Assembly: GCF_003716325.1 (NCBI RefSeq)
Contig: NZ_RDSR01000008.1
Location: 1 to 64,000, forward strand
Length of the DNA stretch: 64,000 nt
Source of the DNA: Cryobacterium tepidiphilum
GTDB lineage: Bacteria; Actinomycetota; Actinomycetes; Actinomycetales; Microbacteriaceae
Direction of reading: 5' to 3'
Shown piece after piece: positions 16,968-23,551 of the stretch (position 1 is its first letter; each line of letters opens with the position of its first letter). Under the pieces are notes generated by a model, which was not told the DNA's origin, made no database searches, and saw nothing but the letters and a program-made list of their open reading frames with translations. Both the position numbers and the translations under genes were made by a program.

Positions 16968-17867
16968 TCAGGCGGGCTTCATCACCAGCACCGGGTCGGT
17001 GGTCGGCTGCTCCGAGCCGCCCTCCGGTTCCACGGTCACCCCGACGGCGGACCCGCTCGTCATGGTGCCGTCCAGCACGTGCCAGGTCGCCGTGTCCGCC
17101 GACGGCCGGAACGTGCCCGCGGCGCGGGCGCCGGAACCGTCGATGTACCAGGCCTCGTAGACCTTGTCATCGGAGAGGGCCGGGAGATCCTCCACGAGCA
17201 CTGCTGAACGACCGAGCGAACCGGACCAGACCAGGGTGGCTGTTCCGTCGCCCATGGGCTGCGACAGTTTCTGCGCGTCGTCCTGGGCCATGATGTCGGC
17301 CAGGGCGGATGCCGCCTGGTTGACGTTCGCGGTCGTGCCGCCGGTCAGCGAGGTCCCGACGAGGCCGCCCGTGACGAAGAGCACCACGGCCGCCGCCGCG
17401 GCCGCGAGGTAACGCAGCGGGCGCGGGAACTGCGAGAGCCGACCGCGGGACGCGGCGGGCGCGGCGCCCGGTCGATCTTCGGGGCGGGGGAGGTGCCGCA
17501 GACCCCGGCGGGCGACGTCGCCGCCGGTCGTCGTGACGGCATCCGCTTGGACAGCGTCGCTGGTGTCGGCTGCCACACCGGCCGTGGCCGGCTCGTCCGC
17601 CGCATGCGAGGGCGATGCGCTCCGCTGCGGGGTCACCGCGATCTTCGCCATGAGGTCGCTCTTCATGCGCGCCGACGGGGTGACCGGGGTCGTGGCGAGC
17701 CCGAGCAGGCTCGCGGTCTCGGCGAACTCGTCGGCCTCACGGTCGACGTCGGCGGATGCCCGCCTGGCCTTCTCGAAGTCGGCCGACTCCTGGGGGCTCA
17801 CCGCGTCGAGCGCGTAGGCGCCGCTGAGCTCCTGGGCGCCGGGGTCGAAGCTGTCGTCGTTGGTCAT
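16968..17867 (-). CDS. rskA: anti-sigma-K factor RskA
   Basis: This 299-residue membrane protein has a cytoplasmic N-terminal anti-sigma domain (about 10-75, LSGAYALDAVSPQE, without the zinc HxxxCxxC motif). A Pro/Ala-rich linker and one transmembrane helix (about 150-172) lead to an extracytoplasmic RskA domain (DDKVYEAWYIDGSGARAAGTF). In mycobacteria RskA holds SigK until it is degraded by proteolysis. The start overlaps the sigK stop by 4 bp, so the pair is translationally coupled. The linker is longer than in the mycobacterial protein. Confidence 0.92.
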   Translation of the reverse strand: MTNDDSFDPGAQELSGAYALDAVSPQESADFEKARRASADVDREADEFAETASLLGLATTPVTPSARMKSDLMAKIAVTPQRSASPSHAADEPATAGVAADTSDAVQADAVTTTGGDVARRGLRHLPRPEDRPGAAPAASRGRLSQFPRPLRYLAAAAAAVVLFVTGGLVGTSLTGGTTANVNQAASALADIMAQDDAQKLSQPMGDGTATLVWSGSLGRSAVLVEDLPALSDDKVYEAWYIDGSGARAAGTFRPSADTATWHVLDGTMTSGSAVGVTVEPEGGSEQPTTDPVLVMKPA

Positions 17868-18478
17868 GATGCCACTCCCAACTCATCGCGGAGCCTGGCC
17901 ATTCCATCCCGGAGCCTGGTTTTCACCGTACCCACAGGAACGGCGAGGATCTCCGCCACCTCGCGTTGGCTGTAACCGCCGTAGTAGGCGAGGCTGATCG
18001 CTTCACGTTGGAGCTCGCTGATCACCGCCATGGCTCGCTTCACCCTCTCGTGTTCGATCCTGATCTCCACGGTCTCGCTGACGTTGTCGTACCCGGTCTC
18101 AGCGTCGCGCTTGCCGATGCGTTCGTCCCGCTCGCGGCCCGACTGCGAGGCGCGCACCCGGTCGACGGCACGTCGGTGAGCGAGCGTGAGCATCCAGCTG
18201 AGGGCCTTGCCCTTCCGGGTGTCGAACCGGGCGGCATCCTTCCAGATCTCGAGGAAGACCTCCTGGGCGACTTCCTCCGACTGCGAGTGGTCGACGAGCA
18301 CCCGTTCGACGAGTCCGAGGACTCGCGGTGCGGTGCGGTCGTACAGCTCGGAGAACGCCTCCTGGTCGCCGTGGGCTATCTGTTCCATGAGACCCTCCAG
18401 GGTCGACTCGATTCCGGGCGGTGCCGGCTCCGGGGTTCTGTAGGTTGTCACGAGTTCAAGCATGACAGCTGTTTGCAT
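17864..18478 (-). CDS. sigK: ECF RNA polymerase sigma factor SigK
   Basis: This 204-residue ECF sigma factor has region 2 (about 45-110, ELYDRTAPRVLGLVERVLVD and EEVAQEVFLEIW) and region 4 (about 140-195, LQREAISLAYYGGYSQREVAEI). The start at 18478 follows GGGAG by 8 nt; a second ATG five codons later is possible. It lies 18 bp after dipZ and overlaps rskA, so dipZ-sigK-rskA is one transcription unit and sigK probably drives its own expression from the dipZ promoter. The mycobacterial SigK regulon includes mpt70, mpt83 and dipZ, which matches this locus. Confidence 0.92.
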   Translation of the reverse strand: MQTAVMLELVTTYRTPEPAPPGIESTLEGLMEQIAHGDQEAFSELYDRTAPRVLGLVERVLVDHSQSEEVAQEVFLEIWKDAARFDTRKGKALSWMLTLAHRRAVDRVRASQSGRERDERIGKRDAETGYDNVSETVEIRIEHERVKRAMAVISELQREAISLAYYGGYSQREVAEILAVPVGTVKTRLRDGMARLRDELGVAS

Positions 18479-18496
18479 TGTGGTTCTCCCGCCGGT

Positions 18497-20200
18497 CTAT
18501 CCGAACGTGAAGGAATAGGCGGCGACCCCCGGGGAAACGCTCACCGCCAAGGTGTCGGTGGCCGCGGTGTCGGCCGTGAAGATCTCGTACGCCCGCGGGG
18601 TTCCGGTCACCGGCACCGTGGTCGTCTTTCCCGCCACCGTCACGGTCACCGTGCCTTCGCCCGAGAGCACCATCTGCACATGTGAGGCCGTGAATGACAA
18701 GCGGATGCGCGCATCGTCACCCTCGGGAGTGATCGACTGCGAATCCAGCTTCCAGTCGCCGCCCAGGGCGAACGTGTTCTCGGGCTGCGCGTCGGGGAGC
18801 GTGAAGGAACCGCTTCCCTGGCGGTACGGCTCGGATCCGGCGAAGTTCACCTGCTTCGTGGCGCCGAGGTACGTCTCACGGGTGAGGGGCCCGCTGGGGG
18901 TCTCGTCCGGCGTGTCGGTGGGCGGCGGCAGCTGCACGCCGGGGTCGGCGTCCTTCAGCAGTTCGCGGATCAGCTTTTCGGTGCTGTCATAGTCGCCTTC
19001 CCCGAACGAGATGTTGCGCACGACGCCCTCGGCGTCGATGAGGTAGCTGGCCGGCCAGTACCGGTTGCGGTAGTTGGTCCAGGTGGACAGGTTGTTGTCG
19101 ATGGCGACCGGGTAATGGATGCCGAGGCTCTTCGCCCCCGCTTTGACGTTGCGGGGTTCCTTCTCGAAGGCGTACTCGGGGGAGTGGATGCCGATCACCT
19201 GCAGCCCGACGTCCTTGTAGGTGTCGTACCAGGCGGCGACGTGCGGGATGGAGCGCTGGCAGTTGATGCAGGAGTAGGCCCAGAAGTCCACGAGCACGAC
19301 CTTGCCGCGCTGCGAGGCGAGGTCGATGGGCTTGTTGCCTGGCGTGTTGAACCACTCCTGGATTCCGGTGATGCTGGGCGCGGTGCCGCACCGCTGCAGT
19401 TCGGTGGCGTGGTTGGTGCACTTGTCGAGGTCTTTGTTCTCGTCGTTCACCAGACCGCCGAGGGTGAGGGCGTCCTGCACCTCCGACGACTCTGCGATCT
19501 GGTTCTGCAGCCCGCTGGTGTAGTCGGGCACGAGGCGCTGGAGCAGCTGCGGCACGTCGAGGATGAGGCCAACGGACAGGGCGATCATGACGATGCCGCC
19601 CGTGATGCGGATGGCCTTCTGGCGCTTGCGGAAGCTCTTCACCCGCTCGGCGACCCTGCGCCCGGCGAGAGCGAAGACCAGCAGCGGCACCGCGGCGCCG
19701 ATGGCGAACGAGAGAGTGAGCACGATGGTGCCGGCTCCCACCTGCCCGGTCGTCCCCGCGACGGTGATGGCGGCCAGCACCGGCCCCGCGCACGGAACAT
19801 AGACGGCCCCCAGCGCGAGGCCGAGGGGGAAACCGCCACGGTCGGTGCCCACGGCCTTCTGCGGGATGCGGGAGAACGGCTTCTCGAGGAGGTGCTGGAA
19901 GCCGGGAACGATCAGCCCAACGCCGATGAGGATGAGCACGACGATGCCGGCCCAGCGAAGCACGTCCTGGGGCAGCCCGAGGAGGCTGAGGAGCACGGAG
20001 CCGACGAGCGTGACGAGGCTGAAGCTGGTGATGAGGCCGAGGATGACGAGGTAGGGCCGCCAGCGCGAGACGCCGGGAAGGCCGTCTTGCGAACGCGCGC
20101 CCTGCACGCCCCCCGAGAAGAAGATAACGGGGAGTACCGGCAGGATGCACGGCGAGATGCCCGTGATCAGGCCACCGATAAAGCCGATGAGAGCGAGCAT
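18497..20200 (-). CDS. dipZ: DipZ-like protein: CcdA electron-transfer domain plus thioredoxin domain
   Basis: This 567-residue protein moves reducing power across the membrane. An N-terminal CcdA/DsbD-type domain of six or more helices carries Cys in ISPCILPVLPV (about 18) and VPCAGPVL (about 125). An extracytoplasmic TlpA-like thioredoxin domain (about 285-420) has the active site CINC in WAYSCINCQRS, and a beta-rich C-terminal domain (about 450-567) follows. The same three-part architecture is known in mycobacterial DipZ. The ATG at 20200 follows AGGAGGA; the reading frame is open upstream but not coding. It is the first gene of the sigK operon. Confidence 0.93.
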   Translation of the reverse strand: MLALIGFIGGLITGISPCILPVLPVIFFSGGVQGARSQDGLPGVSRWRPYLVILGLITSFSLVTLVGSVLLSLLGLPQDVLRWAGIVVLILIGVGLIVPGFQHLLEKPFSRIPQKAVGTDRGGFPLGLALGAVYVPCAGPVLAAITVAGTTGQVGAGTIVLTLSFAIGAAVPLLVFALAGRRVAERVKSFRKRQKAIRITGGIVMIALSVGLILDVPQLLQRLVPDYTSGLQNQIAESSEVQDALTLGGLVNDENKDLDKCTNHATELQRCGTAPSITGIQEWFNTPGNKPIDLASQRGKVVLVDFWAYSCINCQRSIPHVAAWYDTYKDVGLQVIGIHSPEYAFEKEPRNVKAGAKSLGIHYPVAIDNNLSTWTNYRNRYWPASYLIDAEGVVRNISFGEGDYDSTEKLIRELLKDADPGVQLPPPTDTPDETPSGPLTRETYLGATKQVNFAGSEPYRQGSGSFTLPDAQPENTFALGGDWKLDSQSITPEGDDARIRLSFTASHVQMVLSGEGTVTVTVAGKTTTVPVTGTPRAYEIFTADTAATDTLAVSVSPGVAAYSFTFG

Positions 20201-20225
20201 TGATTGTCCTCCTGGGTCGGGAGTA

Positions 20226-20252
20226 GTTCGTCGCCGTCGCGGAATGGGATTG
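20226..20252 (-). promoter_or_regulatory. SigK-type promoter for dipZ-sigK-rskA
   Basis: On the minus strand the elements are CAATCC (20252-20247), 15 bp, then ACGAAC (20231-20226). This resembles the mycobacterial SigK consensus CCATCC-N16/17-CCGAAT. Start would fall about 20219, close to the dipZ ATG at 20200. It mirrors the element facing the fasciclin gene. Confidence 0.7.
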
Positions 20253-20266
20253 GTCGATGCCGGTTC

Positions 20267-20293
20267 CAATCCGTTTCCGGTGCCACTCCGAAC
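20267..20293 (+). promoter_or_regulatory. SigK-type promoter for the fasciclin lipoprotein gene
   Basis: CAATCC (20267-20272), a 15-bp spacer and CCGAAC (20288-20293) match the dipZ promoter element in both hexamers and spacer length. Start would be near 20300, leaving a 5' leader of about 65 nt with AAGGAG before the ATG. Confidence 0.7.
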
Positions 20294-20366
20294 CACCTCG
20301 TGAAAGCCACGAGGGAACACGGCAGATGCCGGCGGATCTCGTCGCACAGCCCCTAAGGAGAACCCC

Positions 20367-21050
20367 ATGCGCATCACAACTCGCCACACCCTCACGGCGC
20401 TCACCATCGCCGCCGTCGCCTCCCTCGGCCTCGCCGGCTGTTCCTCCAGCAGCGACACCGCCTCGTCGGACACCGACACCTCCAGCAGCGCCCCGATGGA
20501 GAGCCCCTCGCAGAGCCCCATGGAAACGCCGTCGACGAATGCCGACCCGGCCGCCGACCTCGTCGGCCCCGGCTGCGCCGCCTACGCCGACGCCGTCCCC
20601 GAGGGCCCCGGATCGGTCATGGGCATGTCGGCCGACCCCGTCGCCGTCGCCGCCTCGAACAACCCGCTCCTTACCACGCTCGTGGCCGCCGTTTCCGGCA
20701 AGCTCAACCCCAAGGTGAACCTGGTCGACACGCTCAACGGCAGCGAGTTCACCGTCTTCGCCCCCGTCGACGACGCCTTCGCCAAGATCGACCCCGCCAC
20801 GATCGACTCGCTCAAGACCCCGGAGGGCGCTGACACGCTCACCAAGATCCTGACCTACCACGTGGTTCCCGGCCAGATCTCGCCCGACGCCATCGCCGGC
20901 GAGCAGACCACCGTCGAAGGAGACACCGTGACGGTGACCGGCAGCGGTGACTCGCTCAAGGTCAACGACGCCAACGTCATCTGCGGCGGCGTTCACACCG
21001 CCAACGCCACCGTGTACCTCATCGACTCGGTGCTCATGCCCCCGATGTAG
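20367..21050 (+). CDS. fasciclin-domain lipoprotein (MPT70/MPT83-like)
   Basis: This 227-residue exported lipoprotein has a signal peptide with lipobox LGLAGC (Cys24) and a Ser/Thr-rich linker (about 25-60). A FAS1 domain (about 85-227) contains [21 protein letters not shown] and the closing [11 protein letters not shown]. The Cys in GPGC and in VICGG recall the disulfide of MPT70-type proteins. FAS1 proteins mediate adhesion or surface interactions. Divergence from dipZ-sigK-rskA with a matching promoter makes it the likely main SigK target; DipZ may serve its disulfide chemistry. Confidence 0.92.
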
Positions 21051-21069
21051 CCTCGGGTGCTCAAGAGGA

Positions 21070-21100
21070 GGGACGGTCGCTTCGGCGGCCGTCCCTTTTT
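21070..21100 (+). terminator. Rho-independent terminator after the fasciclin gene
   Basis: GGGACGG (21070-21076) pairs with CCGTCCC (21089-21095), with an inner CGC-TTCG-GCG tetraloop hairpin and five T directly after. It lies 19 bp past the stop and is the clearest intrinsic terminator in the window. Confidence 0.9.
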
Positions 21101-22906: not shown

Positions 22907-23551
22907 CTATGCGCTAAGCGTGTCGCGAAGCCGGATCAGGCCGTCCCGGATGCGGGTCTTCGCCGTGCCGAGCGGCACCTGCAGCAGTTCGGAGACCTCG
23001 CTGTGCGTGTATCCGCCGAAGTAGGCGAGCTCGATGGCCTGGCGCTGGCAGGCGGAGAGCGAGCGGAGTGCGGCTCGCAGTCCCTGGGCGTTGAGGGAGG
23101 CCTGCGCTGCCGACGCCGTCTCATCGGTCAGGGTGCGGCGGCTCCGCTCGGCGTCGGCGGCGTCGCGGCGCCGCCATGCCTCACTGCTTCGCACGCGGTC
23201 CACTGCCTTGCGATGAGCCATGGTCATCACCCAGGCGAGCGCGGATCCGCGGTTCTGGTCGAACCGGCTGGACGTTCGCCAGATCTCGAGGAAGACCTCC
23301 TGGGTGACCTCCTCCGACTGGTGCACGTCGCGCAGCACCCGGAGGACCATGCCGTGGATGCGGGGCGCGACGTTGTCGTAGAGGTGTGCGAACGCTTGCT
23401 CGTCGCCGTGGCTTGACGCCTCCAGCTGGGATTCGAGACTCGCGCGCGCCGCGTCGGCTCCGCCGTCGATGCCGTCCACACTCGATTCCGTCGTGCCGCT
23501 TTCCGTTTCGAGTGTTTGGTTCTCGGAGGAGTGAGCGGCGCGAGGGGTCAT
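22907..23551 (-). CDS. ECF sigma factor, SigK-like paralogue
   Basis: This 214-residue sigma factor is strongly similar to the SigK at 17864-18478. The shared region 2 segments include QSEEV-QEVFLEIW, and region 4 segments include QRQAIELAYFGGYTHSEVSELL. An N-terminal extension of about 45 residues is rich in Ser, Thr and Glu. Unlike SigK it has no adjacent anti-sigma gene: the downstream genes on the strand encode a VOC protein and an MFS transporter. It is divergent from an OhrR-like regulator and its upstream region contains that regulator's probable operators. The start follows AAGGAC. Confidence 0.9.
   Translation of the reverse strand: MTPRAAHSSENQTLETESGTTESSVDGIDGGADAARASLESQLEASSHGDEQAFAHLYDNVAPRIHGMVLRVLRDVHQSEEVTQEVFLEIWRTSSRFDQNRGSALAWVMTMAHRKAVDRVRSSEAWRRRDAADAERSRRTLTDETASAAQASLNAQGLRAALRSLSACQRQAIELAYFGGYTHSEVSELLQVPLGTAKTRIRDGLIRLRDTLSA

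Follow-up and report, generated by a model that had tools for sequence, protein, structure and literature searches.

In Mycobacterium tuberculosis, the sigma factor SigK is under the control of RskA. As described in PMC10540498, the SigK targets of the tuberculosis complex lie in two loci, one of which is the compact mpb83-dipZ-mpb70 cluster. A conserved mpt83-sigK-rskA cassette has been published (Veyrier 2008, as cited in PMC7509140), and island PiCp 2 of Corynebacterium pseudotuberculosis is listed with cskE, sigK and dipZ side by side (PMC3078919). According to PMC7509140, conservation of SigK sites extends across Actinobacteria, and the mpt70 promoter of M. tuberculosis is recognised by SigK orthologues. 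The same source reports that the cysteines of M. tuberculosis SigK matter for its activation by RskA, that 94% of ECF18 sigma factors and 56% of those in ECF19 have the C133/C183 pair, and that RskA is abnormal in 23% of SigKs without this pair.

Here we analyse a 64,000-nucleotide stretch of the Cryobacterium tepidiphilum genome (hereafter the window) in which homologs of sigK, rskA and dipZ and an MPT70/MPT83-like fasciclin (FAS1) gene occur together. The best explanation, to which we assign a probability of roughly 85% on the strength of sequence comparison, is a putative autoregulated module in which a SigK, putatively of ECF18/19 type, would have FAS1 and DipZ as its outputs.

Results and Discussion

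The genes dipZ, sigK and rskA are packed closely into one operon on the minus strand, faced by a FAS1 lipoprotein gene on the opposite strand (Table 1). The end of dipZ lies 18 bp before sigK, and sigK overlaps the co-directional, full-length rskA by 4 bp. This is the layout of consecutive, coupled genes opposed by a FAS1 lipoprotein that a first-pass annotation had claimed, and coordinates and Pfam matches confirm it. The start of dipZ was taken as the ATG at 20200, which is preceded by AGGAGG, and the mechanical open reading frame start at 20521 was set aside.

Table 1. The SigK-RskA-DipZ-FAS1 locus and a candidate further target in the same genome; positions are those of the window unless another locus is named.
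Feature	Position	Strand	Details
rskA, anti-sigma-K factor	16968-17867	-	299 aa; Pfam RskA_C, E=1.3e-25, above cut-off
sigK, ECF sigma factor	17864-18478	-	204 aa; Pfam Sigma70_r2 and r4_2
dipZ, CcdA-type membrane domain, TlpA-like thioredoxin domain and Thioredoxin_10	18497-20200	-	Pfam
SigK-type promoter (predicted), dipZ-sigK-rskA	20226-20252	-	CAATCC (20252-20247), N15, ACGAAC (20231-20226)
SigK-type promoter (predicted), FAS1	20267-20293	+	CAATCC (20267-20272), N15, CCGAAC (20288-20293)
MPT70/MPT83-like FAS1 lipoprotein	20367-21050	+	227 aa; lipobox LAGC; Pfam Fasciclin, E=2.6e-27
CHRD-domain surface protein and sortase	L125:3901-5499, contig C4, own genome		behind CAATCC-N16-CCGAAC

SigK and DipZ each resemble their M. 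tuberculosis counterpart: the best match of SigK in the PDB is M. tuberculosis SigK (4nqw, E=1.1e-48), and DipZ matches M. tuberculosis DipZ (5cyy, E=1.4e-126; 2hyx, E=4.9e-126). As in other CcdA-TlpA fusions of the DipZ kind, the protein has a membrane cysteine pair (in SPC and VPC motifs), a thioredoxin CxxC (CINC) and a C-terminal Thioredoxin_10 domain, and the cysteines of all three motifs are invariant in an alignment of eight sequences. The FAS1 lipoprotein aligns with MPT70 (1nyo, E=8.5e-64) over residues 64-226, and combines the MPT70 N-terminal stretch, the FAS1 domain and the two cysteines of the MPT70/MPT83 family; these are the two cysteines of its mature part, and both align with those of MPT70. 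The sole PDB match to RskA at E<=1 was an unrelated chain, MITSUBA-1 (E=0.73).

The gap between dipZ and FAS1 holds two back-to-back elements whose CAATCC boxes are separated by 14 bp, and the first-pass reading of CAATCC, exactly 15 bp and (C/A)CGAAC in both directions proved correct. They are the only two matches to CAATCC-N14..18-MCGAAC in the 64-kb window, for which shuffled sequence (n=100) gave a mean of 0.05 matches and never two or more, and they place the pattern C[CA]ATCC, 15-16 bp, CGAA[TC] before both the sigK operon and FAS1. The whole 2.86-Mb assembly contains four matches: the divergent pair, one on contig C4 (discussed below) and one on contig C26. The last, set aside as coding sequence, is probably a chance match; it lies inside an open reading frame whose translation resembles an ABC transporter. 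Judged from the position of the elements, transcription would start some 19-21 nt upstream of the dipZ ATG and some 66-68 nt upstream of that of FAS1. The window sigK lacks a site with at most one mismatch in the 500 nt that precede its aligned start, so any feedback would most likely pass through the dipZ promoter. The 15-bp spacing had been set beside an N16/17 spacing in M. tuberculosis, but we reject it as a special feature, because the mycobacterial loci compared are also mostly 15 by the same counting.

Distribution of the genes and the possible role of DipZ

In a sample of 120 Microbacteriaceae genomes, 76 have a SigK match at E<=1e-45 (the next best match in the other genomes is 5e-19), 36 an MPT70-like FAS1 at E<1e-70, and 23 a DipZ at E<=1e-100. 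Every one of the 36 genomes with FAS1 and of the 23 with dipZ falls within the 76 with SigK, such that MPT70-like FAS1 occurs in 36/76 SigK-positive and 0/44 SigK-negative genomes; the Fisher tests on gene nesting gave P=1.2e-9 (for this comparison) and 1.2e-13, both ignoring phylogeny. The occurrence of the genes is nested: many genomes have SigK and no FAS1 (40/76), and many have FAS1 without DipZ (14/36 at E<=1e-100), while DipZ without FAS1 is rare in the family sample, the FAS1 gene adjoining dipZ on the opposite strand in 22 of the 23 dipZ genomes (the exception is G087). In the single other genome of the genus in the sample (G078), sigK is preceded by a site but neither FAS1 nor dipZ gave a match, and the module is therefore not obligatory. 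Relaxing the FAS1 threshold to E<=1e-15 raises the count to 40 genomes; the additional four contain more distant FAS1 proteins. Six such distant proteins, from four genomes, contain no more than a single cysteine, and their best sites have two or more mismatches.

Two cysteines, which we take to form the disulfide known for MPT70, are present in the MPT70-like FAS1 of all 36 genomes, 22 with dipZ and 14 without a dipZ match. The first-pass annotation had suggested that DipZ serves these cysteines. The adjacency of FAS1 and dipZ in nearly every dipZ genome speaks for this proposal, but the cysteines are kept equally in the 14 FAS1 genomes without dipZ (E<=1e-100), so DipZ is not needed for keeping them. 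By these comparisons DipZ looks linked to FAS1 without being required for the retention of its cysteines, which it may nevertheless help.

A different role for DipZ, as a general thiol-disulfide protein that feeds a redox signal to SigK-RskA and does not assist FAS1, appears improbable to us, though it is the alternative that fares best. It would fit the position of dipZ within the sigK operon, the two loci outside the family (L249, L254) that hold dipZ-sigK-rskA with no FAS1 in 13 kb, and the importance of the M. tuberculosis SigK cysteines for RskA-dependent activation as given in PMC7509140. However, the window SigK and RskA contain zero cysteines, the columns of M. tuberculosis C133 and C183 being A and E in the window SigK, and the pair is missing from 86/86 aligned SigK-like proteins of the family (SigK matches of at least 180 bits, including seven from loci without an rskA match and two that are second copies in a locus). 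A SigK disulfide is thus not the switch here, and an action of DipZ through it is rejected. Furthermore, dipZ tracks FAS1 (22/23) and not sigK, 53 of the 76 SigK genomes having no dipZ match at E<=1e-100.

An rskA reading frame accompanies 75 of 77 SigK loci, the shortest encoding 213 aa, with lengths counted from the first possible start and hence possibly too long. A family that lacks the SigK cysteine pair yet retains a full-length RskA argues against the SigK disulfide as a general part of the switch. Among relatives outside the family, both cysteines are present in 3 of 18 scorable SigK proteins (L254, L294, L309) and a single one of them in five more; the other 5 of 23 (L249, L295, L301, L319, L324) were unscorable.

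Conservation of the promoter-like elements

Upstream sites were surveyed for SigK matches of at least 195 bits, FAS1 of at least 150 and dipZ of at least 300, with reversed upstream sequence as the control. A site with at most one mismatch precedes 27/36 FAS1 genes (34/36 with at most two), against 2/36 and 9/36 in the control. At one mismatch the control was zero for the remaining classes, in which sites were found upstream of 10/13 dipZ genes that precede sigK, 43/64 first-in-operon sigK genes and 5/12 other dipZ genes (these 12 include L071, which is cut at the locus edge and is the same gene as L136). Allowing two mismatches, the control itself reached 25/64 for first-in-operon sigK and 3/13 for dipZ before sigK. 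Where dipZ precedes sigK, sigK also has its own site with at most one mismatch in 5/13 cases.

The first-pass annotation had proposed comparing the elements across relatives, and in that comparison they are conserved. Using the motif CMAWCC-N15/16-NCGAAB, 14 of 22 divergent FAS1-dipZ pairs have sites in both directions, five on the FAS1 side only, one on the dipZ side only and two on neither, for a total of 20/22 with at least one site as opposed to 0/22 in reversed sequence. In two loci with dipZ, sigK and FAS1 (L038, L048), a site stands before sigK and none between FAS1 and dipZ. The claim of a compact autoregulated module is supported by this conservation of the divergent elements, which suggests that autoregulation is probable.

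A second SigK-like ECF sigma factor is encoded at 22907 to ~23600 on the minus strand, followed by glyoxalase and MFS genes; no RskA was found beside it. SigK-like proteins without an rskA match also occur in relatives (L080-L082, L085-L087, L089). It is conceivable that the neighbouring genes are not one regulon, and that another ECF sigma factor, for example this paralogue, reads the elements while the targets of SigK are elsewhere. The paralogue shares 49-50% identity with SigK (over 22913-23446), begins 1.9 kb from FAS1, and has a weak one-mismatch N14 element (CAATCC...CCGGAC) 318 nt before its own aligned start. We nevertheless regard this explanation as very unlikely, given that the elements precede sigK itself in the majority of first-in-operon relatives (43/64, control 0), that exact elements precede FAS1 genes far from sigK (L128, L134), and that the seven rskA-less SigK-like loci (>=180 bits) have no site with at most one mismatch upstream. 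That the matched promoters are due to chance or composition, as might be feared where the motif is short and degenerate and the genome rich in G+C, is hardly credible in view of the 0.05 matches expected in the window, the 118 matches to CAATCC-N15/16-CCGAAC summed over the 120 genomes against five to the reversed pattern, and the conservation of the elements at a fixed place in relatives.

Candidate further targets

The match on contig C4, with an N16 spacer, stops 51 nt short of the start codon of a gene for a secreted protein with a CHRD domain (Pfam E=2.8e-5; 25.4 bits, barely above the 24.1 cut-off). A gene for a sortase (E=4.7e-22) comes after it. Fifteen relatives of the CHRD protein were found in 10/120 genomes, all ten of them SigK-positive; the 250 nt upstream contain a site with at most one mismatch in 6/15 and at most two in 12/15, while the reversed pattern is never better than three mismatches. 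Two of the weaker sites are out of place (188 and 231 nt in L182 and L192). On this evidence the CHRD surface protein and its sortase are probably a third SigK target in this genome. In the open-licence papers searched we found no pairing of a CHRD domain with sortase, nor of ECF19 with fasciclin; the 2008 SigK-regulon study, outside that set, may already contain some of these observations.

Across the relatives, 29 of 72 rows of genome-wide motif matches have no plausible start downstream, defined as a start codon with a Shine-Dalgarno-like stretch and an open reading frame of at least 80 aa within 250 nt. Exact SigK-type sites occur before OpuAC-type binding proteins (L152, from a domain scan, and L198, from translation similarity), and the exact-site loci L152, L198, L203, L205, L211, L216 and L225 also include ABC ATPase, alpha/beta hydrolase and DUF4383 genes as well as lipoproteins without a Pfam match. 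A wider regulon comprising such genes is possible. Genome G049 (L196) has another pair of exact sites arranged divergently, this one separating a CHRD gene from a lipoprotein-like gene; the scanned part of the latter (L153) has no Pfam match.

In at least four of the 36 FAS1 genomes (L129, L130, L132, L134) FAS1 is near a YcnI (DUF1775) and/or CopC gene, with no SigK-type site of at most one mismatch before these copper genes. A DUF1775 protein in another genome (L212) has an exact site 45 nt before its start. The DUF1775 family is present in 78/120 genomes, and among 30 loci scored a site with at most one mismatch in 1500 nt upstream was found in two (reversed, 0), leaving a general copper regulon unsupported.

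Loci outside the family

In a phylum-wide sample of 396 genomes, in which few candidates per genome were scored, DipZ was found at E<=1e-80 in at least 15 and FAS1 at E<=1e-30 in at least 32. One same-class genome (L242) carries FAS1-dipZ-FAS1 on one strand, each gene with its own CMATCC-N15-(A/C)CGAAT site. In L249 and L254, of the same class, dipZ, sigK and rskA lie on one strand; the 13 kb examined contain no FAS1, and dipZ lacks a clear SigK-type site upstream. One of these genomes (G494) has FAS1 elsewhere.

A wider scan covered 80 dipZ loci. Among 53 from named organisms or metagenome-assembled genomes (L285-L337), 11 contain all four genes, eight dipZ and FAS1, six dipZ, sigK and rskA, one dipZ, FAS1 and sigK, one dipZ and sigK, and 26 dipZ alone; the counts of linked genes are lower bounds, as some contigs are cut. 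The other 27 (L338-L364), with DipZ 31-36% identical, have dipZ alone. Within L285-L337, a site precedes dipZ in 23/27 loci with sigK or FAS1 versus 2/26 with neither, a comparison made without a shuffled control.

All four genes were found in one locus in Microbacterium psychrotolerans, M. yannicii, M. mitrae, M. ihumii, Mycetocola saprophilus, Humibacter sp., Crossiella sp., Sinomonas susongensis, Streptomyces zagrosensis and Mycobacterium sp. ACS4054. In Crossiella and Sinomonas sigK-rskA lies beyond FAS1, and order and strand vary relative to the window; S. zagrosensis has a more distant FAS1 (55%), which lacks a site. With four-gene loci in 11/53 and a published mpt83-sigK-rskA cassette, the arrangement in the window is ordinary, not unusual. 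The first-pass annotation had contrasted it with M. tuberculosis, where the SigK targets are not all together. Two loci are indeed described (PMC10540498), but one is the compact mpb83-dipZ-mpb70 cluster, and the contrast with mycobacteria is overstated, since Mycobacterium locus L309 has sigK-rskA-FAS1-dipZ-FAS1 together.

A model of the module

The sequences show what the genes are, how the operon is laid out, and that the promoter-like elements are present and conserved. From this we infer that the elements are read by SigK, that SigK is controlled by RskA as in M. tuberculosis, and that DipZ has its partner within the same response. SigK would be kept inactive at the membrane by RskA until an envelope signal alters RskA, whereupon SigK would take RNA polymerase to the two CAATCC-N15-(A/C)CGAAC promoters. 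One of these would drive dipZ-sigK-rskA, providing positive feedback plus its own brake, and the other an MPT70-like FAS1 lipoprotein displayed on the cell surface. DipZ would move electrons across the membrane to its extracytoplasmic thioredoxin-like domain, most likely servicing FAS1 or other exported thiol proteins of the same response, and the regulon probably also takes in the CHRD surface protein and sortase of contig C4.

More tentatively, and with the odds somewhat against it, one might speculate that SigK-RskA of Microbacteriaceae is a thiol-blind envelope sensor whose core output is surface display, consisting of FAS1 with a dedicated DipZ and a sortase-linked CHRD protein. If true, this would offer a simple non-mycobacterial setting in which to find the SigK signal and the roles of MPT70 and DipZ. 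A one-locus, single-FAS1 version outside mycobacteria is a simpler model for the SigK signal (a question raised in PMC7509140), for MPT70/MPT83 and for DipZ, and the link of dipZ with FAS1 points to a partner of DipZ that can be tested.

Comparison with known systems

Systems of this type have been described in mycobacteria as well as in other actinobacteria, and the module in the window belongs to this published kind. It shares with the mycobacterial SigK-RskA regulon (sigK-rskA; mpt83-dipZ-mpt70) the four protein families, the promoter type and the FAS1 and DipZ targets. It differs in occupying one locus, in contrast to the two described for the tuberculosis complex (PMC10540498), in having one FAS1 gene, divergent from dipZ, in place of two, and in a SigK without the C133/C183 pair. 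As in the mpt83-sigK-rskA cassette outlined in PMC7509140, a FAS1 gene adjoins sigK-rskA with SigK sites, whereas in the window dipZ heads the sigK operon. Like the cskE-sigK-dipZ genes of PiCp 2, the window brings together an anti-sigma factor, sigK and dipZ, although the listing of that island in PMC3078919 names no FAS1 gene. Beside the 23% of abnormal RskA that PMC7509140 gives for SigKs without the pair, Microbacteriaceae are a large group with pair-less SigK in which RskA is kept long. What is added here is conservation measured against controls, a switch free of cysteines, the nested occurrence of DipZ among genomes with FAS1, and the CHRD-sortase candidate target.
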